NCBI GenBank assembly: GCA_035292885.1
Contig: DATDPG010000019.1
Location: 1 to 59,569, forward strand
Length of the DNA stretch: 59,569 bases
From: Bdellovibrionota bacterium
Lineage (GTDB): Bacteria; Bdellovibrionota_G; JALEGL01; DATDPG01
Reading direction: 5' to 3'
The position numbers and the translations under genes are program-made. Below the pieces are notes generated by a model. It did not search any database. It was not told where the DNA came from and saw only the letters and a list, made by a program, of their open reading frames with translations. Position 1 is the stretch's first letter; every line of letters starts with the position of its first letter. Shown here piece after piece: positions 12,065 to 59,569 of the stretch.

Positions 12065-12156
12065 TTCTTTTGTCTAAGATTGTTCTCACATCTAGCGGAA
12101 ATAGTTCGAGCCTCTATTGCGAACGTTCGGTATTTGGACTATCCAGGGAACCGATC

Positions 12157-12729
12157 ATGCGTATTTTGGAGGCAGCCAATCTATTCATCCTTGGGTTTTG
12201 CTCACTTTGCCTTTCAACCGGCTTAGCCCAAGACAATGGAGGTGCGAACATGGAATTCAAAATTCAGTCCAAGAACTTCGATCACAAGGGAAAAATCCCT
12301 TCCCTATACACCTGTGAAGGGAAGGATATCTCGCCGCAACTTTCATGGGCGGGAGCCCCCACGGGAACCAAGAGCTTTGCGTTGATATGCGATGACCCCG
12401 ATGCTCCCGATCCCAAAGCTCCCAAAATGACCTGGGTGCATTGGGTTCTCTATAATATACCGGCGTCGACAGCGGAGTTGAAGGAAGCGGTTCGTGCGAC
12501 GGATCTCCCGAAAGGCACCAAAGAAGGCTTGAACGACTGGAAACGGACCGGCTACGGAGGACCCTGTCCGCCCATCGGAGAACATCGCTATTTCTTCAAG
12601 CTCTATGCCCTCTCCAAGGATCTTCCCGATTTGGGAACTCCGACCAAACAGGGGCTTGAAAAAGCGATGAAAGACAGCATCCTTGGCAAATCGGATCTCT
12701 TGGGCACCTACGAGAAGCAAAAAAGGTAG
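12157..12729 (+). CDS. Periplasmic PEBP-family protein (YbhB/YbcL type)
   Basis: 190 residues from ATG 12157, with AGGGAA upstream; this gives a signal peptide (NLFILGFCSLCLSTGLAQ). The mature part has both phosphatidylethanolamine-binding-protein motifs: CDDPDAPDPKAP followed by WVHWVLYNIP, and GYGGPCPPIGEHRYFFKLYAL, which build the anion pocket. E. coli homologues YbhB/YbcL are of uncertain role; some inhibit host signalling, others may bind small phosphorylated ligands. The predicted export to the periplasm is seen in several homologues. It is transcribed away from the MFS carrier and is followed by a gene-free stretch. Confidence 0.92.
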   Translation: MRILEAANLFILGFCSLCLSTGLAQDNGGANMEFKIQSKNFDHKGKIPSLYTCEGKDISPQLSWAGAPTGTKSFALICDDPDAPDPKAPKMTWVHWVLYNIPASTAELKEAVRATDLPKGTKEGLNDWKRTGYGGPCPPIGEHRYFFKLYALSKDLPDLGTPTKQGLEKAMKDSILGKSDLLGTYEKQKR

Positions 12730-13078
12730 GTAAAAGATGAGTCCGGGATCGGGGCTCACCCATGAACGAAGGAGCCGAGGTGGCATCTCTGCCGTCCATT
12801 ATGAACTGAGCTTCCCTCCGTCCCTGGAGTTCCAAGCGTATTTCGAGGCGGGTGACCTGCGTGACCGGTCCACGAAAAACGTTGTGCTGAGAACGGAACT
12901 TTGGCCGCCCGACGAGTGCTTCCACGCGCCGGGGGAAAACAAGATCGTTCCGTTGCAAGAGATGGCACTTCCGGCTCCTTTATCCCATTGATGATCCACC
13001 CGTCTGAAACCAACGCCGGACCGGAACGATGGACCAGCTCGCCGATTACCTGGCGAGGGTCCGGGAGTGGAAGGTTGT
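12730..13078 (+). other. Gene-free stretch, 349 bp
   Basis: Open frames of 60-110 codons exist on both strands, but none has a family motif, signal peptide or convincing ribosome site, and they mask one another. No tRNA-like fold, terminator with T-tract or long repeat was seen. It may be a decayed gene or a regulatory leader for the AsmA-like gene that follows. Confidence 0.5.
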
Positions 13079-13771
13079 ATGCCACGGATTAAGACATGGT
13101 TCCTTGGAATAGCAGTCCTGCTCCTGCTTCTCCTGATTACTCCTTATTTTTTTCTTGGGTCAATCATCAAAGCAGGAATCAAAAGTGTCGGCCCCAAAGT
13201 GACCAAGACGGCAGTCGACGTGAGTCTGGTAACGCTCTCGCCATTCACGGGGAGTGGGCGGATCCGTGGCCTCGTGATCGGCAACCCGGCCGGTTTTAAA
13301 TCGGAGTCGGCGGTTAAACTGAAGAATTTCCGCATCTCGCTTAACCCGACTTCGCTTGCGAGCGACGTCATTCACGTCCGCTCCGTTCTCATTGAAGCAC
13401 CGGAGATTACGAAAGAGGGGGCCAATCTGGAAACGATTCAAAGGAACGTCCAAAGTTTCGTGCCTGCCGAATCGGGGCGGAAAGGAGAAAAGAGTTCGTC
13501 GACGAAAGTGGTTATCGATGATCTCTGGCTCAAAGAGGCCAAGGTTCATCTTGAACTGTTGGGCCAAATGAACACGATTTCGATTCCGGACATACATCTA
13601 ACGGACATCGGTAAAAAGTCCGGGGGAGTCACGCCCGCTCATGTGGTCGACCTGCTCCTCGGACGTGTTCTACTTGGTGTCGCCACGGGAGCGACGGATC
13701 TGGGTAGATCGGTCTCGGGCAGCGCCCAAAGGATCGGATCCAGGCTCAAAACACTCTTTCGAAAGAAATAG
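13079..13771 (+). CDS. AsmA-like/DUF748-type inner-membrane anchored periplasmic protein
   Basis: 230 residues. One N-terminal transmembrane helix (WFLGIAVLLLLLLITPYFFLG) is followed by a periplasmic beta-rich region. The phrases VSLVTLSPFTGSGRIRGLVIGNPAGF and VKLKNFRISLNPTSLASDVIHVRSVLIEAPEI are the layered strand-turn pattern of AsmA/DUF748/TamB-related lipid-transfer proteins: each layer begins with an acidic or basic turn then a hydrophobic strand. It is much shorter than full AsmA (about 600 residues) and ends in a basic tail (RLKTLFRKK). ATG 13079 is preferred to GTG 13067 because AAGG lies at the right distance. The role is probably in envelope lipid handling, by family analogy only. 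The 252 bases downstream show no gene. Confidence 0.72.
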   Translation: MPRIKTWFLGIAVLLLLLLITPYFFLGSIIKAGIKSVGPKVTKTAVDVSLVTLSPFTGSGRIRGLVIGNPAGFKSESAVKLKNFRISLNPTSLASDVIHVRSVLIEAPEITKEGANLETIQRNVQSFVPAESGRKGEKSSSTKVVIDDLWLKEAKVHLELLGQMNTISIPDIHLTDIGKKSGGVTPAHVVDLLLGRVLLGVATGATDLGRSVSGSAQRIGSRLKTLFRKK

Positions 13772-42064: not shown

Positions 42065-45000
42065 TTATTGGATTCTACAACTACCGCACCCCCCGCCGCC
42101 ACCCCCTGGGGAGGTGACCGTCACGATCGCACTGTCCGAGGCAGTGAGCCCCTGGTTATCCGTGACCTTCAACGTCAATGTGAAGGTGCCAGCGACCGTG
42201 CATTTGATGTTGGTCTGAGAAGCATCAGGCGTCGAGAGTGCGCAGGAGGTTGAACTGATCGTCCACCAATACGAGGCGATGGTACCGTCCGGATCACTGC
42301 CGGATCCGTAGACCGTTTTTACCGTATCTTTCACGATGGAAAAGTCAGGGCCGGCGTTGGCTGTCGGAGGTTGCGATGTGATGTTTGAAACGGTGACATT
42401 GACCGCGCTGGAGGTGGCGGTATTCCCCTTTGCGTCCCGCGCCACGGCCGAAAGCGAGTGCGAGCCGTTGGCGACAGAGGTTGTATTCCACGAAATAGAG
42501 TAAGGAGAGGTCGTGTCTTCCACGCCCAGGTTCACGCCATCGAGTTTGAATTGAACGCCCGCAACACCGTTGTTGTCGGAAGCTGCAGCGGATACGCTGG
42601 TGGTTCCCGACACTGTCGCACCGCTTGCAGGAGACGTCATCGAAACGGTCGGTGGGATCGTATCGAGATTTGAAACCGTGACATTGACCGCCGCGGTTGT
42701 GGCGGTATTTCCCGCCGCGTCCCGAGCCACAGCCGAAAGCGAGTGCGAGCCGTTGGCTGCAGACGTGGTATTCCAATAAAAATAGTAAGGAGAAGTCGTG
42801 ACTTCCGCGCCCAGATTCACGCCGTCGAGCTTGAATTGAACGCCCGCAACGCCGATGTTGTCGGAAGCCGTCGCGTACACACTGATGGTCCCTGACACTA
42901 TCGCACCGAACGTCGGAGATATCATTGAAATCGTCGGCGGGGTTGTGTCAGAGGAGAGATTGGAAACCGTGACATTGACCGCGCTGGAGGTGGCGGTATT
43001 CCCCGCCGCGTCCCGCGCCACGGCCGAAAGCGAGTGCGAGCCGTTGGCCGTAGAGGTTGTATTCCACGAAATAGAGTAAGGAGAGGTCGTGTCTTCCGCG
43101 CCGAGATTCGCACCGTCGAGCTTGAATTGAACGCCCGCAACGCCGATGTTGTCGGAAGCGGTCGCCGACACACTGAGGGTCCCCGACACGGTCGCGCCGC
43201 TGGCCGGAGACGTCATCGAAACGGCCGGGGGGCTCGTGTCCAGGGACGAGTTGGAAACCGTCACATTGACCGCACTCGCGGTGGCGGTATTCCCCGCCGC
43301 GTCCCGCGCCACGGCCGAAAGCGAGTGCGAGCCGTTGGTGACAGAGGTTGTATTCCACGAAATTGAATAGAAAGTACCGGTCGTAATTTCCGCACCCAGG
43401 TTCCCACCGTCGAGTTTAAATTGAACGCCCGCGACGCCGTTGATGTCGGAAGCGGTCGCCGACACACTGAGGGTTCCTGACACCGTCGCACCGCTGGCAG
43501 GATATGTTATCCAAACAAACGGCGGGGTGGTGTCGAGATTAGAAACCGTTACAACGACCGCGCTGGAGGTGGTGGTATGCCCCGCCGCGTCCCGAGCCAC
43601 GGCCGTAAGCGAGTGCGTGCCATTCCGTTCCCTGGTTGTATCCCAAGAAAAAGCGTAAGGAAATGTCGTATCTTCCACCCAATCGTACCCGTTTTTCTTG
43701 AATTGGACGCCCACAACTCCGAAGCTGTCGGAAGCCTTAGCCCACACACTGACGACCCCTGAAACCGTCTCGCCGTCGGCCGGAAACTGCATCGAAACAG
43801 CCGGAGGTATATTGTCAACGGGCTGGCTGTTGGAAACGGTTACAACGATTGCACGGGTGGCGGTTGTATTTCCGGCTGCGTCCCGCGCGACGGCAGCAAG
43901 CGAGTGCGCGCCATTCGGTACAGAGGTTGTATCCCAGGAAACGGAGTAAGGAGAAGTCGTATCTTCCGCACCCAGATTAACTCCATCGAGTTTGAATTGT
44001 ACGCTCACAACGCCGAGGCTTTCCGAAGCTGTCGCCGACACAGGAATGGTCCCTGTCACTGTCGCGCCGCTGGCCGGAAACGTCATCGAAAGGATCGCAT
44101 CATTGATCACGGGCACATCAACCCGAACCGTAACGCCGTTCGTGTCATGGGAGAGTTGTGTCATCGTAATCCAGCTGTTCGAATCTTGGAACACTCCGCT
44201 GTCGACAAGCGTGTCCACAAAGAACGTATTCGAGGATAGCGACTTATTGTAATGAATGCTGGCCTTGTCGGTATATCTTGAACCAAGTGCTGTGTCGTAT
44301 CCAATTTTTCTCCTATAGGAGACATAGTAATATTCACCCGTGCCTGCTTTAGGAATTTTGACAAGCTGTGGATAGAGTGCCAAGGCCGGTTCGGTCTCCA
44401 AGGGCGCCACGGTCACGGTCCATGTCCCTGCGCTGCCGATTTCCATAATCTGCGAGGGAGGAAGCCATCCCATCTGCTCCTTGTGACGCCCGTTGACCTG
44501 CCGAAAGATATTATTCGACATCCCCATGAAATCGGTGATGTCTCCATACTCACTATCGTTAACCCCGTCGTTGTTCCAATCCGCGGAAGCGTGTGCCATC
44601 CCCAGATTGTGACCGAGTTCATGGGCAAAAATATCCGCGACACAGTATTTTACCCAAGCGCGGCACACACCAGCGCATCCGACGTTGCCCAACCCAGCCC
44701 ATGTACAAGTGCTGTCCGAGGGAAGAACGTAAACTTTGTGTTGGTATAAGTTCAGATCGATCCCTATATTTACCGCCGCTTCATCAGCTCGCGTTGCCCA
44801 CGTGATTGGATCGCAAGACTCCGTTTTGGAGCCGGAGATCAATACCCGATACACATCCGATTGCCCGTTGCCGTTGGTGTCTCCGGGGAAAGATACGACG
44901 CCGAACGAGGTCTCCCGATACAGGCCGTCCACAGATTGTACCCCTGTGAACATGATGTTGGCGGCTTGGCTCTCCGTGGTGCAGGAGGACGGTGAATCGA

Positions 45001-45511
45001 TGAAATCCACCAGCAGAATGACCGCCCGCCGTACGTTGCTTAAAGCCGCTTCGGAAACCATCGGAGTTTCGAGAACCTCAATCCCCATCGCCTCTTTCGA
45101 GAGAGCACCGATCGGCGAATAGGAAACGGCCTCCAGATGAATCGTCTGGTCTTCAACCGCGCCTTGAACCGAGATCATTGAACCCGTGGATAAACCGGCG
45201 GGCGGCTCTCCGGGAAAATGAAGTTCAAAGGTCTTGTGCGAAACCGAATCTTCGAGAAGGTACATCCGCTCTTCAACGGGGTTGTCAAAATTATCGACTT
45301 GAAGGATTTCAAGTCGGCCGGTTATGCGGGAAAAATCTTCGCCATTGAGAGTTTCAGAATAGGAAGTTTGAAAAGAGGAAGTTTGAACCTTTTCTTCTGG
45401 AACCAAATCGGATTTCGTGGCGCTCGAGCCGCAGCCAACCACAGGTACAGCGAACAGGAACGAAAGAGCCAAGAGGAAACCGAGTAGCGCGGAAGTGTCG
45501 GACTCCTTCAT
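42065..45511 (-). CDS. Lipoprotein metalloprotease (M11-like) with six Ig repeats and PKD domain
   Basis: 1148 residues. Signal LLALSFLFAVPVVGC gives a lipobox Cys near 27. Residues ~60-150 are a propeptide-like beta domain; ~170-480 hold a zinc protease with HELGHNLGMAHASADWN (HExxHxxGxxH) followed by a Met-turn in DFMGMSNN, the gametolysin/M11-type pattern. Then come six Ig-like repeats of about 96 residues (DTTPPxVSMTSPASGATVSGTxSVSATASDN...), a PKD domain (ANAGPDFSIVKDTVKTVYGSGSDPDG) and a GGGGGGCGSCRIQ tail. It would be displayed on or released from the cell surface, with the Ig array as a stalk or adhesin. M66 or another metzincin is the alternative. No secretion partner gene is adjacent. 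Confidence 0.88.
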   Translation of the reverse strand: MKESDTSALLGFLLALSFLFAVPVVGCGSSATKSDLVPEEKVQTSSFQTSYSETLNGEDFSRITGRLEILQVDNFDNPVEERMYLLEDSVSHKTFELHFPGEPPAGLSTGSMISVQGAVEDQTIHLEAVSYSPIGALSKEAMGIEVLETPMVSEAALSNVRRAVILLVDFIDSPSSCTTESQAANIMFTGVQSVDGLYRETSFGVVSFPGDTNGNGQSDVYRVLISGSKTESCDPITWATRADEAAVNIGIDLNLYQHKVYVLPSDSTCTWAGLGNVGCAGVCRAWVKYCVADIFAHELGHNLGMAHASADWNNDGVNDSEYGDITDFMGMSNNIFRQVNGRHKEQMGWLPPSQIMEIGSAGTWTVTVAPLETEPALALYPQLVKIPKAGTGEYYYVSYRRKIGYDTALGSRYTDKASIHYNKSLSSNTFFVDTLVDSGVFQDSNSWITMTQLSHDTNGVTVRVDVPVINDAILSMTFPASGATVTGTIPVSATASESLGVVSVQFKLDGVNLGAEDTTSPYSVSWDTTSVPNGAHSLAAVARDAAGNTTATRAIVVTVSNSQPVDNIPPAVSMQFPADGETVSGVVSVWAKASDSFGVVGVQFKKNGYDWVEDTTFPYAFSWDTTRERNGTHSLTAVARDAAGHTTTSSAVVVTVSNLDTTPPFVWITYPASGATVSGTLSVSATASDINGVAGVQFKLDGGNLGAEITTGTFYSISWNTTSVTNGSHSLSAVARDAAGNTATASAVNVTVSNSSLDTSPPAVSMTSPASGATVSGTLSVSATASDNIGVAGVQFKLDGANLGAEDTTSPYSISWNTTSTANGSHSLSAVARDAAGNTATSSAVNVTVSNLSSDTTPPTISMISPTFGAIVSGTISVYATASDNIGVAGVQFKLDGVNLGAEVTTSPYYFYWNTTSAANGSHSLSAVARDAAGNTATTAAVNVTVSNLDTIPPTVSMTSPASGATVSGTTSVSAAASDNNGVAGVQFKLDGVNLGVEDTTSPYSISWNTTSVANGSHSLSAVARDAKGNTATSSAVNVTVSNITSQPPTANAGPDFSIVKDTVKTVYGSGSDPDGTIASYWWTISSTSCALSTPDASQTNIKCTVAGTFTLTLKVTDNQGLTASDSAIVTVTSPGGGGGGCGSCRIQ
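42375..44115 (-). repeat. Six tandem Ig-like repeats within the protease gene
   Basis: Repeat unit about 290 bp, aligned at roughly 44115, 43822, 43540, 43245, 42960 and 42668 (minus strand). Repeats 3-6 are very alike at the DNA level, including long identical runs such as the bases encoding GSHSLSAVARDAAGNTA, while the first two are more diverged. This pattern is expected from recent internal duplication or gene conversion at the C-terminal end of the array and predicts copy-number variation between strains. Confidence 0.88.
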
Positions 45512-47066: not shown

Positions 47067-47834
47067 TTAGCGCGATGATTTACAGACGTTCTGAAGAGTT
47101 GGATTGGTTACCTGCGAACAGAGCGAAAGGTTTTGTAGCCCTTTTGCAACGGCCACAATGCAAATGTCCTTTTTTTGATCGTTCTGTTCGATTTTTCGAC
47201 AGTACAAAACATCATTCAATTTTTGGCCCACCTTAAAGAAACAGTCGTTTTTCGATTCGAGTGTCCCAAGAGACGGACAAATAGACGAATCTCCATGTTC
47301 CTGAGCAATCAGGACTTTGCATTCATCACTCCACCCCGATTGTTCACAGAGAGAATAGGTCTTTGTCGCCTTGGCCAAGGACAGATAACATTGTTGCTTA
47401 CGGGAAAGATCTGCGATTCTTTCACAAGAAGATGGTTCCTTATTTTCGATTGCGCGATCTGTTACCTTCTGAAGAGTCGAGTTCTGCATACATTCATCGA
47501 CGAGGCGCTGATCTTGAATCTTAGGGCATATGGTCGAATCTTTAAGTCGTCCTGCTGCGTAGACAAAACAAAGGTCCTGAAGATGTCCGTCGTGGAGTCT
47601 ATTGCAGACGGTTGGCTCATGTGTCCCTACCGCTATTCCAGAAAAGCACCCCAGCTTACTCTCATTGTTTTGAATCTTTTCGCAGGTAGTAGAGTCTTTG
47701 GAATCGATCCCTACTTTGCTCCAGCATCGATCTCGCTCAAATGAGGACGTTTTCTGGGAGCAATCCTGACTGTAGGAAGTCGACACGAACAATAATAGAG
47801 CAACTACAAACGCAGATATATTTTCACGACCCAT
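47067..47834 (-). CDS. Exported cysteine-repeat protein, foreign-looking
   Basis: 255 residues from ATG 47834 with a signal peptide (SAFVVALLLFVSTSYSQ). The mature protein is eight copies of a ~27-residue unit built around Cys-x(8-12)-Cys: for example DSTICPKIQDQRLVDEC, EPSSCERIADLSRKQQC, DSSICPSLGTLESKNDC, NLSLCSQVTNPTLQNVC. Between units lie short helices (AVAKGL, AAGRL, SLAKAT). Each cysteine pair could close a helical hairpin, giving a disulfide-clamped solenoid. Similar D-x-S-x-C-x-x-I repeats occur in uncharacterised proteins of archaea and candidate bacteria. Its base composition is visibly more AT-rich than the flanks and it sits between two transposase remnants, so recent transfer is likely. 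Function unknown. Confidence 0.8.
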   Translation of the reverse strand: MGRENISAFVVALLLFVSTSYSQDCSQKTSSFERDRCWSKVGIDSKDSTTCEKIQNNESKLGCFSGIAVGTHEPTVCNRLHDGHLQDLCFVYAAGRLKDSTICPKIQDQRLVDECMQNSTLQKVTDRAIENKEPSSCERIADLSRKQQCYLSLAKATKTYSLCEQSGWSDECKVLIAQEHGDSSICPSLGTLESKNDCFFKVGQKLNDVLYCRKIEQNDQKKDICIVAVAKGLQNLSLCSQVTNPTLQNVCKSSR

Positions 47835-49999: not shown

Positions 50000-51457
50000 T
50001 CATTCAAGCCGGTATTCAATCCACTCGCTGACGCTTTTCTTCCCGTTGCGGTCTTTTTCCTGTCCGTCCCATACGGCGATGGCGAGCTCGCCGCTCTTGT
50101 CGAACTTCGCGTCCGCGCTATCTTTGCTCGCGAGGGAGCGGCGGAAGACCACATGCCATTTCCCATCCGAAAATGTACCCAACCCCTCGATATTTTGCGC
50201 CTCGACCGGCTGAGTGGTGAGCGTGCTGAAGCCGGTGGCGTTCAAGTCTTCGACCGGATATCTGCGGGTCGGCCACGAAAAACGGTTCCCGGCGGCGACC
50301 GCCGTGAGATAAGGCGTTGTCGACTCTAACCCCATAAAGGCCATATCGGTCGCCATGTACGGATAGACATCCGCGAGCTTCCTCTGCACGCCGAGTTCCC
50401 TCTGCCAGGCCGCTTTCCAGTGCCAGATATTCACCGGGAGATTTCGCTCGCCCATCGTGTAGATGGGTTCGCCCTTCGTCGGTTCCAAGGGGAACTGGAT
50501 CGCGCTTCCGTCTGAAAACGCGTCGACGCTCATGAAGTTGTCGTCTTTTCGCGCGCTCGCCCATTCCAAGAGGAAAGCGATTCCTCTTCCGTTCGCAATG
50601 GCCCGAACGGCGGCATTGTCGGCGAAATGTCCGGACGCCCAAAGAGGTTTGAGCGGGACTCGGGTGACGGGAGCTTTATCCCAAATGGGATCCGGATAGG
50701 CCATCGCGACGCGATCGACCCGGGTCACCTTGACCTGTCGCTCGGCAATCGGTGTGATCGGCACCGGCTTGGAGAGGGAAAGAATGAAAGCGGAGAGCGC
50801 CCAATTTTCTTTCGGCTTGAGCACGTCCGTGAAAGAGGGCATTGGCGTGCCGTTGATGCCGGTAATAATCGTGCGATAAACATCTTCCAGGCGCTGGCCC
50901 CCCTTCAAATGGCCGCGCGTAAAGTCCGCGGCGCGGATGGGCAGGCCGAAATCGTCCTTTAGGTTTTGAGATTGCGTCCCGAGGCCTTTGCCGTCTGCGC
51001 CGTGGCAGACCCGACACTGCATTCGCTCATATACCGCCCGACCTTGAGAGATCAGTTGTTTCGTCACCGCCGGAGCCGTTCCGAGGTTCATCACTTCCGG
51101 CGCCGCCTGATTTTTGAACTCGGGTGAGAATCCTTTGATGTACGTGATGATGGCCTGTTTCTCTTCAGGGGTCAGCCGGGGCCAAGCCGGCATGGATGAG
51201 CCCGGAAGGCCGTTCGTGACTGTCCGATCCAGGTCCTGATCCGTCGGAAGGGATCCGCTCGACGTCGAGCGGAATTTATAGACGCCTCGCGTGAAATCGC
51301 GCGGTTTTGGGAAAAGCAGATACGCGGCGTCCCCAAGGCCGTCGCCTTTTGCACCGTGGCACACGCCGCATTTCACCTCGTAAAGCGTCTTTCCGTCCGC
51401 GGCGGAAGCGAGGGCAGGGACGAACAGCAACAGCGAGATAAGCAAAGTCGCTTTCAT
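50000..51457 (-). CDS. Di-haem cytochrome c fused to EB_dh-type haem-b domain (gamma subunit)
   Basis: 485 residues. Signal LLISLLLFVPALASA, then two cytochrome c domains with CGVCHGAKGDG (about residue 30) and CRVCHGADGKG (about 148), each followed by a distal Met region (SSMPAWPRL; TPMPSF). Residues ~245-485 are the haem-b domain of ethylbenzene-dehydrogenase type gamma subunits, with GIAFLLEWAS, DAFSDGSAIQFP and the conserved C-terminal KDRNGKKSVSEW. In complex-II-type DMSO-reductase family enzymes this subunit carries electrons between the Fe-S beta subunit and periplasmic partners; fusion to cytochrome c gives it its own exit path. AAAGGAG precedes ATG 51457, which overlaps the chaperone stop. 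It is last in the operon. Confidence 0.92.
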   Translation of the reverse strand: MKATLLISLLLFVPALASAADGKTLYEVKCGVCHGAKGDGLGDAAYLLFPKPRDFTRGVYKFRSTSSGSLPTDQDLDRTVTNGLPGSSMPAWPRLTPEEKQAIITYIKGFSPEFKNQAAPEVMNLGTAPAVTKQLISQGRAVYERMQCRVCHGADGKGLGTQSQNLKDDFGLPIRAADFTRGHLKGGQRLEDVYRTIITGINGTPMPSFTDVLKPKENWALSAFILSLSKPVPITPIAERQVKVTRVDRVAMAYPDPIWDKAPVTRVPLKPLWASGHFADNAAVRAIANGRGIAFLLEWASARKDDNFMSVDAFSDGSAIQFPLEPTKGEPIYTMGERNLPVNIWHWKAAWQRELGVQRKLADVYPYMATDMAFMGLESTTPYLTAVAAGNRFSWPTRRYPVEDLNATGFSTLTTQPVEAQNIEGLGTFSDGKWHVVFRRSLASKDSADAKFDKSGELAIAVWDGQEKDRNGKKSVSEWIEYRLE

Positions 51458-52116
51458 GATGGATCTCCTTTAAGGCCAAAAAAGCGCAGTTCGTTTTCAA
51501 CCAGGGCGCGAGTGAACGCCGCGAGCGGAGGCATCAACTTGTTGGGTTCCCGGCGATCCGTGGCATCGAGGTAGGCGAACAGAAATGGAACGACATGCTC
51601 CTGGAGAAATCGGCTCCGGGCCTCACGCGAGACGGATGCTCGCTCCGGGTCGTGCTGTTGGAGCGCGACGGCCTCTTTGAACGCAAGGAAGGAAAGAAAT
51701 TCGAGTTCCAGGCCGATGTGATCCACCCGTTCCTTTTCGTTCGGCTCGACGGCGAACGCCCGGTAAAAGCCGGCCACATCCGCCATGATCTGTTCTTCGC
51801 CGAAGAGCTGGCGGTTTCCGTAGCGGGCGCTGTACGGCGGGAAGGTATCGGCCATCACGTATTTCGAAAGATGCTCGAAAAGTTCTTCGAACGCCGACTC
51901 TTTGTCCGTCTGTTGCGCTACTTCTTGCCCCCACTGTTTCGCGGACTGCATCAATTCCGGGTCTGCCAATTGCTCCGCCAGCCCAGTTAAATCAGCGTCG
52001 GCATCTTTCGTCGCGAGATAGCGAAAGAAATCAGCATCGACCTTTGTGGAAAAAAAGGCCGCCGGAAGCTGATAAAGCCTCGCGAGGGCGAACGCGCGGT
52101 CAGATGGAGTTGGCAT
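51454..52116 (-). CDS. TorD/DmsD-family chaperone for the molybdoenzyme
   Basis: 220 residues from ATG 52116, which overlaps the beta-subunit 3' end by 17 bp; its own stop overlaps the gamma subunit start. All-helical with the family landmarks: LARLYQLPAAFFSTKV, ADTFPPYSARYGNRQLFGEEQIMADVAGFYRAFAV, ERVDHIGLELEFLSFLAFKEAVA and FLQEHVVPFLFAYLDAT. E-P-N-x-x-x-R-x-D-H is the TorD signature region. Such proteins bind the Tat signal of the catalytic subunit and hold it until cofactor insertion. The client is clearly the alpha subunit of this operon. No enzyme activity is expected. Confidence 0.92.
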   Translation of the reverse strand: MPTPSDRAFALARLYQLPAAFFSTKVDADFFRYLATKDADADLTGLAEQLADPELMQSAKQWGQEVAQQTDKESAFEELFEHLSKYVMADTFPPYSARYGNRQLFGEEQIMADVAGFYRAFAVEPNEKERVDHIGLELEFLSFLAFKEAVALQQHDPERASVSREARSRFLQEHVVPFLFAYLDATDRREPNKLMPPLAAFTRALVENELRFFGLKGDPS

Positions 52117-53341
52117 GTTTCGCCGGCCTTTCATAGACTTCTTCTTCGACACGGACGTCCACCACGTCGCGACCCTTTTTGTCGTATCCGATGATCCGGT
52201 CGTTATAGACCTCGAGTTTTTTCCCTCGGATCGTCGTTTCGAACACCTTTTTCCCCTGTTCGATCTTGTATTTGAAAATAATCGGCTGGGCGGCGCGGAA
52301 AAGCTGCATGACCGCCAGCGTTTCGCGGGACGGCCATGTGTATTCGTCGATGGCGTGATCGACGCCCGGCCCGAACATCTGAGTGAGATACGGCCGGGGA
52401 ACCCATCGCGGGGGGATGTAATAGCCGTTGGGTTCGGTCCCGAACTGCGGATAAAGCGGAAGGGCGATCTTCGCGACCTTCACCATGTAATAGAGCGGGT
52501 TGTTTCGATCTTCTTTCCACTCGCCGTTCTTGGGATCGATCTTAACGAGCCCTTGCAGACGAATTTTTCCCACGCACGCGCACATGCAGCGGGTCTCGAT
52601 CGGTGTGCCCGGGAACATCGGTTCGTGACCGGAAATCCGCGGATAGCAGCCGATGCATTTTTCGGATGTGCGCGTGGCTGGCCGATACATCGATTTTTTG
52701 TAAGGACACGCTTCCACGCACTTTCGGTATCCGCGGCATCTCTCCTGGTCGATGAGGACAATTCCATCTTCCTTTCTTTTATAAAGCGCCTTTCGAGGGC
52801 AGGCGGCCAGGCAAGCCGGATAGCTGCAATGATTGCAGATGCGCTGAAGGTAAAAGAACCAGGTCTTATGGACCGGCAGCTCGGTTCCTTCGGTATGCGC
52901 GATGGTTTTCATCAAGCGCGCCCCGCGGGGACTGTCTTCGTGAAGATTGGGGTTCGCCCATTCATCGTCGTCCGGGAGATAGCCGAGCACTCTCTGTTGA
53001 CCGAACTCCGGCACCAGCCCCGCGGCCTCGAAAACCGTCTTCCCTTCAAAGGTCCCGCCGTTCCAGACTTGCCCTTCCGGATTGGCCTTTTCCATCATGG
53101 AAAGAATCTTGACGTCCCAGTGGCGGGGATATCCGCCGTACGGTTTGGTTTCGACGTTGTTCCACCACATGTATTCCTGTCCTTTGGAGAACGTCCAGGT
53201 CGATTTGCAGGACATCGTGCAGGTTTGGCACCCGATGCACCGGTTGATGTTGAACACGAACGCGAACTGTTCATCGGGATAAGCCGCGTCGTAGGGGTAC
53301 TCCATTTCCCGTTTGATCTGCCAGTTGAAGACTTTCGGCAT
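52100..53341 (-). CDS. nxrB: Iron-sulfur beta subunit, nitrite oxidoreductase/NarH-like
   Basis: 413 residues. Four ferredoxin-type clusters: CIGCQTCTMSCKSTW (Cys 35, 38, 41, 45), CNHCSYPACLAACPRKA, CRGYRKCVEACPYKK (Tyr at one position, the form binding a 3Fe-4S cluster as in NarH), and CIGCYPRISG with ETRCMCACVGKIR. Phrases such as FNINRCIGCQTCTMSCKSTWTFSKGQEYMWWNNVETKPYGG and YPQFGTEPNGYYIPPRW are, from memory, very close to NxrB of Nitrospira. The protein has no signal; it should be exported with the Tat-tagged alpha subunit. It wires the molybdenum site to the haem-b subunit. ATG 53341 has AAGGAGGAG seven bases upstream. Perchlorate/selenate reductase beta subunits are the alternative family members. 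Confidence 0.93.
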   Translation of the reverse strand: MPKVFNWQIKREMEYPYDAAYPDEQFAFVFNINRCIGCQTCTMSCKSTWTFSKGQEYMWWNNVETKPYGGYPRHWDVKILSMMEKANPEGQVWNGGTFEGKTVFEAAGLVPEFGQQRVLGYLPDDDEWANPNLHEDSPRGARLMKTIAHTEGTELPVHKTWFFYLQRICNHCSYPACLAACPRKALYKRKEDGIVLIDQERCRGYRKCVEACPYKKSMYRPATRTSEKCIGCYPRISGHEPMFPGTPIETRCMCACVGKIRLQGLVKIDPKNGEWKEDRNNPLYYMVKVAKIALPLYPQFGTEPNGYYIPPRWVPRPYLTQMFGPGVDHAIDEYTWPSRETLAVMQLFRAAQPIIFKYKIEQGKKVFETTIRGKKLEVYNDRIIGYDKKGRDVVDVRVEEEVYERPAKHANSI

Positions 53342-53350
53342 ATCTCCTCC

Positions 53351-53602
53351 TTATTCCCGCTTCGGCGTGCTCTCGTGGATCCAACGCAGGATCGTTTCGC
53401 GGCCGTGCGCTTTGTAGAGTTGATGGGTGATGAGATAGAACGGCGACTCGAACAGTTTTAGAATTTCTTCTTTCGGGTGCCCGAAGCGGGCGTACTCCTC
53501 AATGATCGTCCGGGCCATCTCCTCGTTGGCCGCCGGATCGTCCGGCATGGGCATTCCGACCAGTACGTTCGGATCGTCGAACTCGAATTCATCCTTGGGC
53601 AT
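53351..53602 (-). CDS. Small acidic protein of unknown function between alpha and beta subunits
   Basis: 83 residues from ATG 53602, with AAGGGGGG upstream; it starts 2 bp after the alpha-subunit stop and ends 9 bp before the beta-subunit start, so it is part of the operon. It opens with PKDEFEFDDPNVLVGMPMPDDPAANEEMARTIIEEYARFGHPKEEILKLFESPFY, an acidic segment then helices with conserved-looking Pro, Gly and aromatic residues, and ends in a basic helix. No cysteines, no signal, no membrane span. Codon use and ribosome site look like a real gene. It is not a subunit known in NarGHI or NxrABC. Possible roles: small subunit, assembly or maturation factor. Confidence 0.8.
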   Translation of the reverse strand: MPKDEFEFDDPNVLVGMPMPDDPAANEEMARTIIEEYARFGHPKEEILKLFESPFYLITHQLYKAHGRETILRWIHESTPKRE

Positions 53603-53604
53603 GA

Positions 53605-56600
53605 TCAACCCCCCTTCGTCAGATCGCCGGTGAGGTACGCCTGCATGAGTTCGTTCTCCTCGCCCGGATTCATTCCTTCACTCCCCGGTTTCCAGGCGCC
53701 CATTCCGCCCAGGCCTCCCGGTTCCGCCTTCGTGATCTTCACCAGCGTTTCTTTCGGGACCGTATTGACGGCGTGGTTGTCCGCCTCGAAGCCGAAGACG
53801 AACTTCATTTTCGCCTTCGACTTATGGAACAGAGAATCGAGCTGGTGCATCGGAGGGAGCCAGCCGCGCGTGATCGACTGGTGCGAGCCGTATCTAAAGC
53901 TCGCCTGATAGCCGGTGTTGCCCGAGAGCGCCCTTCCGTCCGGCCGAGTCTCGTGCGCCTTAACCGTTTTTTCTGTGGCGATGAAGGCGCCGTGCTTCAT
54001 CATAATGATGTGGTAGGGGTAGGCCGGATTGAATTTCACCCGCAGCATGAGGCGAGCCACGCGATAACGGGGATCGTTCGGCTTCCATCCGGTGTACGGC
54101 CGGTCGGCGGGATTCGCGTCGACGTAAACATAATCGCCCTCGTTCAGTTTGAGATCCTTGGCCGCCTTTGGATTCATGTTGATTTCGTATTCCCCGACGC
54201 CGGGGGTTCGTTTGTCCATTCGATAGGGATCCCCGAACTGATTGCTCCAGATCGCGTGCCAATCGGTGACCGCCCAGCTGGAATGTGTCGTGTGCCGTGA
54301 TTTCGGTGTGAGAGCGAAGAACCGATACCCCTTTTCCCAGAGGGGGTTCTTCGTCGCCTTCGCTTCCTTCCATGAAAGTTTTACGTTCCGGACTTGCCGT
54401 TCATCCGGGCCCATGGCCGTGCGGGGGATGCCATAGTCGTCCGGCCGGATCCAGGGGTTGGTGGAGACGATGACGTTGGGAAGATACGGCGTCGCTTCCG
54501 GTCCCTCGCGGTGGACGATGAAGTTCTCGCCGTACTCCATGACCTCCGGTTCGTCGTTGTAAGCCTGTAACCGTCCGGTCGGCGTGAAAAACGGAAGGCT
54601 GTCGTGGATCTGCTCGTAAAACGGGATTCGAGGATACGTTCGGAAGAGCATGAGCGCGGCCCCCGGTTCGCCGTATTTGCCCTTCATAATATCTGTGAGC
54701 TGATAACCCTGTGTGGTAGTCGAGCTGTCGAGGAGCCGCTGGATATAAACATCCGAGCTTCCCTCGAGAATGAATTTCCAATACTCGGCGCAGCGGGGGT
54801 CGTGAATCAGCTCGCCCAGCTTCTTCGCAACATCGGCCAGGATTCGCGCGTCGTCGTGCGTGTTGTAAACCGGCTTAATTCCGCCTTTCCAGATCTGGAG
54901 GAACGGGTTTGAACAGGACGCCGTGATTTCGCGGACGTCCGTTTCGATCCAGGAGTTCGCGGCCAGCGCGATGTCCGAATACTCGACGGAGGCCGTCATT
55001 TCGATCTCGTTCGCAACGATCATCTCGACGTTCGGATCCACGTTGAAGATCATTTCGTAGACCCATTTCGCGTTGTTGATGAGGTTCACGTTCGTAAACC
55101 ACATGACTTTGGTGGGCGTCGGCATATGCGACTTGCCCGTAAAGTTGCGCGGCCCCTTCTTCGTTTTGGCGATCAGCGGCTTGTCGCCGTAATTCCAGTA
55201 CGCCGGTTCCTCTCCGCGGGAAATTTCGCGGACATGGATCTCCTTCGGTTTGGCGTTCGGATCGACGTTGCAGTGGAACGGATCCTCCGCGACCCACGAT
55301 CCGAAACCGTATCCCACGCCTTCCGCTCCCTGAAAGAGAGCGGCTTTGTAATTCCCGGCCCAGGTGTAGCTTCCGGCGCCCGGCTTTCCGATGTTTCCCG
55401 TCAGAATGAGGGGCAAATACGCCGCGCGGTTTACCTCCGTCGCGTGGAACCAATGGTTGATCCCCTCGCCGACATGGATCGCCGCCGGTGAGATCGTGGC
55501 GAAGTCGTCGGCCAGCTTAACAATCAAATCCTTCGGGGCATGCGTGATCTCCTGCACCGTATCGAGGTCGTAATCCTGTAAGTGACGGTGGTACATCGAA
55601 AGAAGCGTCATCACTTTCACACTTTTGCCGCCGGTCAGTTTTACCGTCCATTCGCCTTCGAGAGCGGGATCGATCCCTTTCGACGCCAGGGTTTTGCCGA
55701 CGTCGTCCCGGGTAACGGCTTTGAACGACTTCGAGGCTTCGTCGTAGACAACGTAGTCGGGGAGTTTCGTCCGATTTTCGTCGGTGAGCCCATGGATCTT
55801 ATACGACGGGCCGTTCTTTAGGTCCGCCGGTTTATATCCGGGGAACAGTTCTGCGGCCGAAAGCCGCCGCGAAGTATCGGTTCGGACCAGAAGCGGAAAA
55901 TCGGTGAACTGTTTGACGAAGGCAGCATTGTATTGCTTCCGATCGATCATCAGTTTCGTCACGCCGAGCAATAGGGCTGCGTCGGTCTGCGGACGGACCG
56001 GAATCCAATAGTCCGCTTTCGTTGCGGGAGGGCTGTATTCCGGCGCGATGCAGACGATCTTGGCGCCTCTTTCCATCGTTTCGATGAAGAAATGGGAGTC
56101 GGGCCTTTTATTTTCGACCAGATTCTTGCCCAACTGGACGTGTAATTTGGTGTGCCGGAGATCGTTGAAATCGCAATCGGCCGCCTGAAGACCGTGAACG
56201 AACGGATGGCCGGGAGCCTGGTCGCCGTGCCATGTATAATTCGACCATGCTCGCGCGCCTTTGGCTTTGTCCGGTTCGACGCCGCGGACATGGGCGTCGA
56301 GAAGTCCCAGCATGTTGGCAAAGCGGTACATTCCATACTTGCCGATGACGCCGAGAAGTCCCATTCCACCGCGTAACTTGAATGTCCTTGTTCCGGCTCC
56401 CTCCAGATACGACATCATGTCGGGGTGATACCCCTGATCCAAGAGCCGTTTTTTCCCCTCTTCGCCGCTGTAACGTTTTGCGATCGCGATCATTCCCTTC
56501 GCGATATACGTGTTGGCTTCGTCCCATCCGATCGGGTCGAACGTGTCGCTGCCCCGGGAATCGAAATGATATTTCTTTTTGAGTTCCGGAGTCAGGTCGG

Positions 56601-57042
56601 GAAATCCGTCGTCCGCCCATTGTTTCCATCCCTTGCGGATGATCGGATGCCGCAGGCGATGCGGTCCGTATACACGCCGCTGGAACGTGAAGCCGTTCAA
56701 GCAGCCGCGCGGATTCCACGCATACGTCGCCTTGTTTCCGTAAAGGTCTTTGACTTTGTGATTGTCGTAATTCTGCTCGCTCCGCAGAAAAATTCCGTTT
56801 CGGACGAAGCCGCGCAGCCGGCATTCATGCGTGCAATTCGGTGAGCAGACCCAGGTGAACGAATCGTCGTATCGGTATTGGTCGAGGTAGACCTTTTCCC
56901 AACCGCGGTTCGGGTATCCGGCCAGCGGGTTGCCGACCTCGGTGGTCAACGGTTTCAGTGAGCCGAACGCGAATGCTCGGGGAGCGGAAAGAGCCACGCC
57001 TGCGGCGGAGCTGACCTTAATAAAGTTGCGTCGGTTCATCAT
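53605..57042 (-). CDS. nxrA: Molybdopterin alpha subunit, nitrite oxidoreductase/nitrate reductase-like (DMSO reductase family type II)
   Basis: 1145 residues, matching the length of Nitrospira NxrA. The N-terminus is a Tat signal (NRRNFIKVSSAAGVALSAP), so the enzyme is periplasmic. The 4Fe-4S motif is C66-x3-C70-x3-C74 with C114; the first ligand is Cys rather than the His of NarG. By alignment with NarG Asp222 the molybdenum ligand is probably Asp274 in YTWHGDQAPGHP. Later MGD-binding boxes include KLHVQLGKNLVENKRPDSHF and NIGKPGAGSYTWAGNYK. Type II enzymes of this kind oxidise nitrite or reduce nitrate, selenate or (per)chlorate; the direction cannot be read here. ATG 57042 overlaps the ferredoxin stop. 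Confidence 0.92.
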   Translation of the reverse strand: MMNRRNFIKVSSAAGVALSAPRAFAFGSLKPLTTEVGNPLAGYPNRGWEKVYLDQYRYDDSFTWVCSPNCTHECRLRGFVRNGIFLRSEQNYDNHKVKDLYGNKATYAWNPRGCLNGFTFQRRVYGPHRLRHPIIRKGWKQWADDGFPDLTPELKKKYHFDSRGSDTFDPIGWDEANTYIAKGMIAIAKRYSGEEGKKRLLDQGYHPDMMSYLEGAGTRTFKLRGGMGLLGVIGKYGMYRFANMLGLLDAHVRGVEPDKAKGARAWSNYTWHGDQAPGHPFVHGLQAADCDFNDLRHTKLHVQLGKNLVENKRPDSHFFIETMERGAKIVCIAPEYSPPATKADYWIPVRPQTDAALLLGVTKLMIDRKQYNAAFVKQFTDFPLLVRTDTSRRLSAAELFPGYKPADLKNGPSYKIHGLTDENRTKLPDYVVYDEASKSFKAVTRDDVGKTLASKGIDPALEGEWTVKLTGGKSVKVMTLLSMYHRHLQDYDLDTVQEITHAPKDLIVKLADDFATISPAAIHVGEGINHWFHATEVNRAAYLPLILTGNIGKPGAGSYTWAGNYKAALFQGAEGVGYGFGSWVAEDPFHCNVDPNAKPKEIHVREISRGEEPAYWNYGDKPLIAKTKKGPRNFTGKSHMPTPTKVMWFTNVNLINNAKWVYEMIFNVDPNVEMIVANEIEMTASVEYSDIALAANSWIETDVREITASCSNPFLQIWKGGIKPVYNTHDDARILADVAKKLGELIHDPRCAEYWKFILEGSSDVYIQRLLDSSTTTQGYQLTDIMKGKYGEPGAALMLFRTYPRIPFYEQIHDSLPFFTPTGRLQAYNDEPEVMEYGENFIVHREGPEATPYLPNVIVSTNPWIRPDDYGIPRTAMGPDERQVRNVKLSWKEAKATKNPLWEKGYRFFALTPKSRHTTHSSWAVTDWHAIWSNQFGDPYRMDKRTPGVGEYEINMNPKAAKDLKLNEGDYVYVDANPADRPYTGWKPNDPRYRVARLMLRVKFNPAYPYHIIMMKHGAFIATEKTVKAHETRPDGRALSGNTGYQASFRYGSHQSITRGWLPPMHQLDSLFHKSKAKMKFVFGFEADNHAVNTVPKETLVKITKAEPGGLGGMGAWKPGSEGMNPGEENELMQAYLTGDLTKGG

Positions 57043-57572
57043 GTCTCTCTCCTTGGTTCAATGGAAATCGCTGCCGGTTTGGAAACGGTTGAACAGGCCG
57101 GAATACAAAAACCGCATCCGTCGCACGACTCGTTGATGTGCGGCCGCCCGTCGATCAGGTCGATTGCCTTCTGCGGGCAGGCCGATGCACACATTCGGCA
57201 TTCGGATCCCGTCTCGGACGCGCAGTACGAGGAATGAAAAACGGCCGTGCCGATCGGAAGTTTTACCGTTGGAAGCGTGAGAGCGTTTCGATCGCATGCG
57301 GCCGCACAAGGATAACCTTCACAAAAGAGACAGCCCGATCGGTCGAAGCGGAGAACGGGAAGGGGCGGATCTCCCTCCAGATGAATGAGATGTTTCGGAC
57401 AGCCCTCGACGCATCCGCCGCAGGCATCGCAAGACGAGAAGAGCCGTTCAAAGTTTTCGGTGCCCGGGGGAAAGATGGAACCGCGAGCTTTGTGAACGAC
57501 CTTAGCCCGGACCGAAGAAGCAAAACGTCCGGTGAGGAAACGCCGGCGTTCGAGAGAAAAAGGGGACGCCAT
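57039..57572 (-). CDS. NapF-like polyferredoxin with twin-arginine start
   Basis: 177 residues from ATG 57572; the frame is open upstream but that part covers the preceding gene, and ATG 57572 overlaps its stop (ATGA). The N-terminus is SPFSLERRRFLTGRF, a twin-Arg motif without a strong hydrophobic core, as in NapF. Four cysteine clusters follow: CDACGGCVEGCP, CLFCEGYPCAAACD, CRMCASACP and CDGCGFCIPACS. NapF in E. coli helps mature the molybdenum enzyme in the cytoplasm. Its stop overlaps the alpha-subunit start by 4 bp, tight translational coupling that supports the same maturation role here. Confidence 0.92.
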   Translation of the reverse strand: MASPFSLERRRFLTGRFASSVRAKVVHKARGSIFPPGTENFERLFSSCDACGGCVEGCPKHLIHLEGDPPLPVLRFDRSGCLFCEGYPCAAACDRNALTLPTVKLPIGTAVFHSSYCASETGSECRMCASACPQKAIDLIDGRPHINESCDGCGFCIPACSTVSKPAAISIEPRRET

Positions 57573-58465
57573 CAATGAATCTCTTGGGCCAAATATCCTT
57601 CCACGCAGCGCTCGCACGCCCCGTTCTCCCGCCTCCATTCGGGCGAATCGGTTCGGACTCGCGCGGCCACACGATCCAGGTCGGCCGGATCCGCCCAGGC
57701 CGACGTGGGAAATCCGCAAAGAGGGCAATGGGGCGTGCCGGCTTCATCTTCCGCGAAAGAGAGGAGCCACTCTTGTGTGGGATGAGCCTCGCGCCGAATC
57801 GTTTCGGCCAGAGTGCTCAATGTCTCCGCCGTTCGTCGCGGATAACAATAGGAAAGCCGGTGTTCAAACTCTTGCCGAGCCGATCCGGTGTCGATCCCGA
57901 GATTCCGAAGGCGGGCTTCGACGGACATGGACCAAAGAAGTGAAAACCGCTCTTGAGCCGCTTTTTGTCCCGCGGGTGTTGCGGAGCGCCACGCTCGGGA
58001 CGGTTGATAGGCGAATGCCGGATCGAGCATGTCTGCGATGTGCATCCATTCCGCGTTTAGGAAGTAATCGAAATAAGGTTGAAGAAAGCGCTGGGGTCGG
58101 ACGGAAAGCCGGACAAAGAGCTGATCGGGATTCCCCTGGGGCACGATTAAATCCGCTCCCTCGTTCTTGGGAGCGTGAGTCACCGCCAGTTCGATTCGCT
58201 TCAGCTTCGCAAGAAGGGGATAGTGAAGCAGACTTTTTTCGAGCTGCTCTTGGAAACCGAGCGTTCGAAAGTAACGGAGTTCCAACTCCTCAAAGGAAGC
58301 GGCTCGTTGGGAATGGGGGAGTTCGTAAATGGGGTGCGATTCTTTGGCGTATTGCCGGACGATCTCCATATCGTCCTTGCGCTCGCGACGGTTGACTTCG
58401 AGCTGCACGGTTTGCCGCAACAGTTCGGGATCGAGATGAAAGAGAGAGCGCGCCGAGGAAGACAT
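57572..58465 (-). CDS. Unknown protein with C-terminal zinc ribbon, coupled to the molybdoenzyme operon
   Basis: 297 residues from ATG 58465, 2 bp after the stop of the cyclic-nucleotide-domain gene; its stop overlaps the NapF-like start. No signal or membrane span. The first ~200 residues are helical and charged (HLDPELLRQTVQLEVNRRERKDDMEIVRQYAKES; SVRPQRFLQPYFDYFLNAEWMHIADMLDP). The end carries a zinc-ribbon-like HCPLCGFPTSAW and then CERCVEGYLAQEI. FdhE, the maturation protein of formate dehydrogenases, also pairs a helical body with C-terminal Cys-x-x-Cys ribbons, so an FdhE-like role (checking or inserting the cofactor) is my best guess, not established. Confidence 0.78.
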   Translation of the reverse strand: MSSSARSLFHLDPELLRQTVQLEVNRRERKDDMEIVRQYAKESHPIYELPHSQRAASFEELELRYFRTLGFQEQLEKSLLHYPLLAKLKRIELAVTHAPKNEGADLIVPQGNPDQLFVRLSVRPQRFLQPYFDYFLNAEWMHIADMLDPAFAYQPSRAWRSATPAGQKAAQERFSLLWSMSVEARLRNLGIDTGSARQEFEHRLSYCYPRRTAETLSTLAETIRREAHPTQEWLLSFAEDEAGTPHCPLCGFPTSAWADPADLDRVAARVRTDSPEWRRENGACERCVEGYLAQEIH

Positions 58466-58467
58466 AG

Positions 58468-58917
58468 CTAAACGGATTTGCGGGCGCTCTTCCTCTTGAT
58501 TTCGTTTCCCCCTTTTAGGAACTTCAGTTCGTGCACTAAAAGAGGATCGGAGTGTTGAATCCAATGGAGAAGCGTCGACTTTTCAGTAAAGGAAACCAGA
58601 ACGTCATTCACGACGAGGGCCGTAAGCGGGTAGGGCTGATTCGCCACCAACGAAGCGAGGCCCAACATGGCGCCAGGTCCGGCTTTCAGCGGCGCGTGTA
58701 GGTCCTTCTCCGTGATTCGGAGTTCGACGGCGCCCTCGTGAATCACAAAGAGGCCGTACGGAAGGTGCCCTCGGTAAAAAAGAACTTGTCCCGCTTTATA
58801 CCGAGAGGGGGGAATTCGCCTTTTCCAGTCGGTCAGAGATTTCGGACCGATGGTCAGAGCCAAGGGGATGGAAGCCACGAAGTCTCCGTTGGGCGATACA
58901 GCCAGCATCATCCCCAT
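58468..58917 (-). CDS. Stand-alone cyclic-nucleotide-binding domain protein
   Basis: 149 residues. One cNMP-binding beta-roll: YKAGQVLFYRGHLPYGLFVIHEGAVELRI, then PGAMLGLASLVANQPYPLTALVVNDVLVSF. This is the Crp/PKA fold, but there is no C-terminal helix-turn-helix, only a basic tail (LKGGNEIKRKSARKS), so it is not a classic Crp regulator. The Arg and Glu that bind cAMP phosphate are not evident. Start uncertain: TTG 58938, ATG 58917 or 58911; no strong ribosome site. It sits 2 bp upstream of the zinc-ribbon gene in the operon. It may sense a ligand and act through protein contacts. Confidence 0.82.
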   Translation of the reverse strand: MGMMLAVSPNGDFVASIPLALTIGPKSLTDWKRRIPPSRYKAGQVLFYRGHLPYGLFVIHEGAVELRITEKDLHAPLKAGPGAMLGLASLVANQPYPLTALVVNDVLVSFTEKSTLLHWIQHSDPLLVHELKFLKGGNEIKRKSARKSV

Positions 58918-58953
58918 TGTTAAGATCCCACGGTTCAAAAAACATGAGCTGAA

Positions 58954-59569
58954 TCAGGCTATGGAAGATTTTTTAACGGATTCCGACCGGCTCTCGGGGA
59001 ACGTGCACCACGGTTCACCTCCGAGATAGTTCCCGTTGACGGCGTAAGCCCGTGAACGAGAGCCGCCGCAAATCGAGCGATAGACGCAGCCGCCGCAATT
59101 TCCAATCAGGAGTTTTGGATTTCGAAGATCGAAAAAGAGGCGGGAGTTTCGGTAGACGTCCGCCAGGCGATCGGTTCGGATATTGCCCGCGCGAATCGGC
59201 AGAAAGCCGCTCGGGAAAAGCTCGCCTTCATGGGAGACGAACATGAACCCGTTCCCGGAGTTCACGGTCTTCGGAGCCAGGCCGATGCTCCCCCCGGGAC
59301 CGATGGCCCGGCGAAGTTGCGCCGGCATCGTGCGTGTCGACGTGATTCCGCCTTCTCGTTCGCACACGTAACGGCGGTAATGCGGAGCCTCCGTCACCTT
59401 TAAAACGAAATCGTGTGCCCGATTCAGTTCGTACAGCGTTTCAAACGCCCGCTCGCACATTTCCGAATTCAAGTGTTGAAGAGCGTTGCCCCTGCCGGTC
59501 GGCACCAAGAAGAAGACCTCCCAAAAGACGGTTCCCAAGCGGATCGCCAGCTCGCCCATCTCTTTCAGA
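58954..59569 (-). CDS. Radical SAM/SPASM protein, NirJ/AhbD-like C-terminal part (5' partial)
   Basis: The frame runs off the right edge (codons for LKE precede Met 59559). Visible is the second half of a radical SAM protein: FWEVFFLVPTGRGNALQHL, TEAPHYRRYVC, NSGNGFMFVSHEGELFPSGFLPIRAGNIR, and a SPASM domain NCGGCVYRSICGGSRSRAYAVNGNYLGGEPWC with Cys ligands for auxiliary clusters. The closest family by eye is the haem d1/AhbD/NirJ-related group often near respiratory genes. The catalytic CxxxCxxC lies outside the window. It ends 37 bp before the cyclic-nucleotide gene on the same strand and may start the operon. Confidence 0.85.
   Translation of the reverse strand, partial: LKEMGELAIRLGTVFWEVFFLVPTGRGNALQHLNSEMCERAFETLYELNRAHDFVLKVTEAPHYRRYVCEREGGITSTRTMPAQLRRAIGPGGSIGLAPKTVNSGNGFMFVSHEGELFPSGFLPIRAGNIRTDRLADVYRNSRLFFDLRNPKLLIGNCGGCVYRSICGGSRSRAYAVNGNYLGGEPWCTFPESRSESVKKSSIA

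Follow-up and report, generated by a model that had tools for sequence, protein, structure and literature searches.

An operon of 11 tightly spaced minus-strand genes was found at the end of the window (the whole 59,569-nucleotide stretch of DNA analyzed here) and beyond it, running on contig C19 from 61828 down to 50000 in the order CBS–porin–radical SAM–cNMP–zinc ribbon–NapF–alpha–83 aa–beta–TorD–gamma. Neighboring genes overlap or are separated by gaps of no more than about 20 nt, with 4-nt overlaps at NapF/alpha and TorD/gamma, and clear Shine-Dalgarno sequences are seen at several of the gene starts. All genes named in the initial annotation are present, on the minus strand and tightly overlapping as it had described. 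The genes for a CBS protein and an Alginate_exp-type porin lie past the window edge, upstream of the radical SAM gene, of which the window holds the C-terminal part (58954..59569; the entire gene, 372 aa, spans contig C19 58954-60072). Its product, a radical SAM/SPASM protein, scores above the TIGR04053 cut-off (422.7 bits) when read past the window edge. There follow a cNMP-binding-domain protein (58468..58938, a 156-aa frame; PF00027, 44.6 bits), which has no homolog among the loci compared, a Zn-ribbon protein (57572..58465 from a probable ATG start at 58465, in a 330-aa frame) whose family is conserved in nitrite oxidoreductase (NXR) loci, and a NapF-like ferredoxin (57039..57572, probable ATG start at 57572) with Fer4 domains, whose TIGR00402 score of 67.8 bits does not reach the cut-off of 102.2. 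The molybdenum subunit alpha (53605..57042, 1145 aa), a conserved small protein of 83 aa (53351..53602, ATG at 53602), the Fe-S subunit beta (52100..53341), a TorD-like chaperone (51454..52152; PF02613, 47.6 bits; TIGR03482, 49.2 bits, under its cut-off) and gamma (50000..51457) complete the operon.

The source genome is a 3.1-Mb assembly, 96.7% complete, with one alpha of NXR type, from a rarely sampled phylum with five genomes in the collection searched. A second genome of this phylum (locus L102, G004:C61) carries an alpha 42% identical, together with beta, gamma and TorD and without the 83-aa protein; this locus adjoins molybdopterin-synthesis genes. Upstream of the window operon and divergent from it lies an NnrS gene (contig C19 61926-63122, which is 11927-13123 of locus L001), after which come Hsp20, CBS and UspA genes, a neighborhood that hints at a connection with nitric oxide or stress. 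Elsewhere in the window, 42065-45511 encodes an M11-type peptidase that carries a PKD domain along with six Big_7 Ig-like domains, and 47067-47834 a cysteine-rich, repeat-like protein of 255 aa without a Pfam match.

The alpha subunit matches Kuenenia NxrA over its entire length with 1757 bits, against 183 bits for perchlorate reductase PcrA, 155 for ethylbenzene dehydrogenase and about 118-123 for NarG among the other solved relatives. Over the first ~955 residues, which were those compared (alignment A1), its identity to Kuenenia NxrA is 63%. Alpha carries a Tat motif (NRRNFIK), the molybdenum ligand Asp274 and the substrate residue Asn69. Beta is of NxrB type (558 bits to Kuenenia NxrB). 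Gamma has a Sec signal, two CXXCH motifs (residues 30 and 148) and a heme-b domain of the ethylbenzene dehydrogenase type (NxrC/EB_dh), in which Met335 and Lys473 or 474 occupy the heme-b ligand positions (compared with PMC8387239). It reads as a diheme cytochrome c like that of Kuenenia (6h5l_B) joined to an NxrC domain, a predicted soluble subunit with heme b and two hemes c, and the fusion to two cytochrome c domains claimed earlier is borne out by the two motifs and the heme-b domain.

Other identities were examined and rejected. NarGHI lacks support in three respects, namely the N-terminus (PF14710, the NarG N-terminal family, is absent from the genome), the NarI subunit (no NarI-like membrane protein is encoded in the operon) and the His ligand of the FS0 cluster. 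A type II enzyme of the perchlorate or ethylbenzene kind (Pcr, Ebd) was dismissed on its bit scores, and alpha also falls far below the EbdA and DMSO_red_II family cut-offs. Oxyanions other than nitrate and nitrite were set aside by bit scores and ligand residues, SerA and ClrA standing outside the comparison. We consider the operon product likely to be a periplasmic NXR-type nitrite/nitrate oxidoreductase with its assembly factors, a reading drawn from homology, ligand positions, signal peptides, operon structure, phylogeny and conservation; by homology, its substrate pair would be nitrite and nitrate. It is a known kind of enzyme with known chemistry, and no new oxyanion module. The suggestion of an undescribed module for selenate, (per)chlorate or another oxyanion is not supported: alpha groups in the periplasmic NXR clade, in a tree without Nitrospira and Nitrospina, and three of its companions had already been described, as Kuenenia, Nitrospira and Nitrospina all keep a TorD, a zinc-finger protein and a gamma with cytochrome c alongside NXR (PMC3578206). 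The initial annotation had held that its proposal would fall if alpha proved to be nested in a characterized clade with the same accessory genes and a known substrate. This is partly what was found, because alpha groups with the NXR clade and these three companions are known ones; the enzyme clade and the substrate pair agree with a characterized system, but the all-cysteine FS0 and the 83-aa protein look new.

Relatives were taken as the best 80 of 331 confirmed in one scan of genome contigs. In these best 80, the alphas are 61-70% identical, and the record titles name 18 phyla, with five records bearing no phylum; the core of the operon is thus common to relatives in no fewer than 18 phyla. 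To our knowledge, enzyme work on an NXR-type protein is lacking for most of the non-anammox lineages in the set. Many of the loci have alpha, 83 aa, beta and TorD in this order, preceded or followed by gamma, and the Zn-ribbon gene is present in 38 of them. Within the 80 loci compared, which include no Nitrospira, the nearest kin of the window alpha come from uncultivated phyla, followed by those of anammox bacteria. The earlier description of alpha and beta as NXR-like rather than NarGHI holds, and its likening of alpha to a Nitrospira type is corrected to this placement. An alpha tree of 86 rows (85 different) was built with the FS0 ligand column removed and with Nitrospira and Nitrospina NxrA outside it. 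The window alpha falls in a clade of 15 rows with Cys in that column (support 100/100), and the grouping of this clade as sister to Brocadiaceae has moderate support (82 in one tree, 85/99 in a 40-row analysis). The Anammoxibacter alpha (L075) lies outside the Brocadiaceae group, and the Anammoxibacter genome is without the 83-aa protein too; a Bacteroidetes-titled alpha is identical to a Neomarinimicrobiota-titled one (L055 and L056), a probable misbinning; and one genome (G005) holds a Cys-type and an Asp-type NXR copy (L085, L005), each accompanied by the 83-aa gene, and one of the two copies may be a binning error.

The FS0 ligands predicted by alignment for the window alpha are four cysteines (C66, C70, C74 and C114). 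In Kuenenia, the ligands are C67, D71, C75 and C115, and three cysteines with one aspartate or one histidine are expected for FS0 across NXR and NAR (PMC8387239). At the position of Kuenenia Asp71, which is Cys70 in the window, 24 of 82 alphas have Cys and 58 have Asp. The best tree places two changes to the Cys state, no bootstrap tree contains a single Cys group, and one Cys clade is rejected (P = 0.0002, AU test, 40 rows); the second Cys clade is mainly Chloroflexota. The all-cysteine motif, as predicted from these alignments, evolved twice, in separate clades. No description of an all-cysteine FS0 in NXR was found in the open-access literature. From general Fe-S chemistry, the potential of such a cluster should be lower than that of the Asp-ligated cluster in other NXR.

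Across the entire alignment, a sole other column has such a pattern with respect to the Cys clades. His1054 is common to both and rare elsewhere, the Asp-type rows having mostly Gln, with exceptions in two Cys rows (Gln) and three Asp rows (His). The residue aligns with NarG His1184 (hhalign), the mutation of which to Ala shifted the Mo potential by -36 mV (PMC10673323). The Gln-to-His change was rejected as proof of coupling to the Cys change, since a single shared column is frequent in clade pairs; for this reason and because of the exceptions, His1054 is a lead only.

Electrons would pass along the Mo site, FS0, the beta Fe-S clusters, the gamma heme b, the two c-type hemes of gamma and a soluble periplasmic cytochrome c. 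In nitrite oxidation, cytochrome c would deliver them to an aa3-type oxidase, and in nitrate reduction it would receive them from a putative quinol:cytochrome c oxidoreductase. We infer this route, as we do the potential shift and the role proposed below for the 83-aa protein. The physiological direction is not readable from sequence, and nitrate reduction and nitrite oxidation are about equally likely. That the enzyme mainly reduces nitrate in the periplasm with electrons from cytochrome c, nitrite oxidation not being its role, has slightly less than an even chance. The lower potential expected of an all-cysteine FS0 would suit this role, as would, as a lead, the His at the NarG His1184 position, but gamma retains the Met/Lys heme-b ligands that are tied to high potential (PMC8387239). 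Many of the relatives come from phyla in which nitrite oxidation is not known, and Kop et al. prefer nitrate reduction for non-Nitrospinia NXR/NAR-like enzymes (PMC10839748); against this, the Cys clade contains ODZ_NOB7a, a described nitrite oxidizer (PMC11373643), and the Kuenenia enzyme runs in both directions (PMC8387239). The genomic context is similarly divided, with an NnrS gene adjoining the operon and no RuBisCO found on one side, and an absent NarI-type quinol subunit and the presence of an aa3-type oxidase on the other.

We give a comparable probability, again somewhat below even, to an enzyme that works mainly in nitrite oxidation, with the aa3-type oxidase as its partner. The genome contains coxB, coxA and coxC of this cytochrome c oxidase (coxC was assigned from its position and reading rather than from a family match), gamma is predicted to be soluble and cytochrome-c-bearing with its heme-b ligands kept, and a near relative, ODZ_NOB7a, has been placed among nitrite oxidizers (PMC11373643), but the FS0 ligand is unlike that of verified nitrite-oxidizing enzymes. 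NirK, NirS and RuBisCO had no match in the genome, with working controls; the first two results favor nitrite oxidation, whereas the third provides no marker of autotrophy, and neither does ATP-citrate lyase, for which no match was found but the control was silent as well. Autotrophic nitrite oxidation is unsupported by these searches, because RuBisCO has no match and the ATP-citrate lyase search had no working control.

Searches of Pfam, NCBIfam and PDB gave no match to the 83-aa protein, and a fold search with its model (four predicted helices, all-helical, pLDDT 88) returned nothing, in agreement with the earlier remark that it has no known place in such operons; nor was any description of the gene found in the open-access literature. 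An iterated profile search detected the family in 65 loci. These are 65 of the 67 non-anammox loci among the 80 named (65 of 66 informative), the two misses being L079, where the locus stops just past alpha, and L044, from which the gene is absent. Neither the 13 anammox loci nor nine anammox genomes that were searched in full contain the family. In 63 of the 65 loci the gene sits between those of alpha and beta, and pN/pS values of 0.04-0.29 in close pairs indicate purifying selection. In Nitrospira moscoviensis, the locus tags of nxrB and nxrA are consecutive (PMC6606698), which suggests that no annotated gene lies between them.

From its size, its place and the missing signal (neither a signal peptide nor a membrane helix is predicted), the 83-aa protein most likely assists the assembly of alpha and/or beta in the cytoplasm, ahead of their export, although the operon already contains a TorD-like chaperone. 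The chaperone would fold alpha, the 83-aa protein would help alpha and/or beta assemble in the cytoplasm, and alpha would join beta for export of the pair by the Tat system. It is possible, though less likely, that the protein is instead exported with the complex as its fourth structural subunit. Its gene sits between those of alpha and beta, and the NXR crystal structure (7b04) is from an anammox bacterium, a group without the protein; the missing signal peptide speaks against such a subunit, yet beta is also without one and is thought to travel with alpha, and no fold match gives a hint of it. A NapD-type small chaperone was rejected: NapD is alike in size and in its missing signal, but the fold predicted here is all-helical and not ferredoxin-like, and no homology was detected. 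In the Zn-ribbon family, C-terminal CxxC pairs are conserved and many members have an HExxHxxD motif (alignment A3), at which the window protein reads AEWMHIAD, the first His missing. Its model (pLDDT 92) gave weak fold matches, the best being a putative zinc metallopeptidase (E = 0.13), a lead toward a possible zincin-like fold.

The all-cysteine FS0 motif of two origins and the conserved 83-aa family absent from anammox bacteria look new. We regard as unlikely the broader proposition that the all-cysteine alphas form two independent lower-potential classes, mainly cytochrome-c-linked nitrate reductases, and that the 83-aa protein is also a general NXR assembly factor dispensed with in anammox bacteria. 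The genes nxrA and nxrB serve genome surveys to count nitrite oxidizers, yet their sequence does not give direction. The twice-switched FS0 ligand, and the 83-aa protein dividing anammox from nearly all other sampled loci, are concrete positions that could be tested for whether they mark the direction, or the route of assembly, of an enzyme central to the nitrogen cycle.

Among known systems, E. coli NarGHI is likewise a type II Mo enzyme with Asp on Mo, an Fe-S cluster beta and a dedicated chaperone, but it differs in the low NarG score (about 118-123 bits), its cytoplasmic location, the membrane NarI and the His at the first FS0 ligand position. The Nitrospina and Nitrospira NXR clusters are described with a TorD-like chaperone, a zinc-finger protein and a cytochrome-c-bearing alternative NxrC (PMC3578206, PMC6606698), as in the window, whereas the gamma genes of Nitrospira are described as lying apart from nxrAB. 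NXR-ABC of Kuenenia stuttgartiensis (7b04) agrees with the window enzyme in the alpha and beta matches, the NxrC-type Met/Lys heme b, the Mo Asp, the substrate Asn and Tat export. Three FS0 cysteines are common to both, and the two differ at Asp71/Cys70, in the fusion of the window gamma to two cytochrome c domains with no NXR-T partner identified in the window, and in the 83-aa protein, which anammox loci lack and the window has. ODZ_NOB7a and the other UBA8248 genomes (L005, L006, L097-L099; PMC11373643) belong to another phylum and their operon is without NapF, but they have the same order of Zn ribbon–alpha–83 aa–beta–TorD–gamma, and their alphas, 68-71% identical to that of the window, have the Cys FS0 too.
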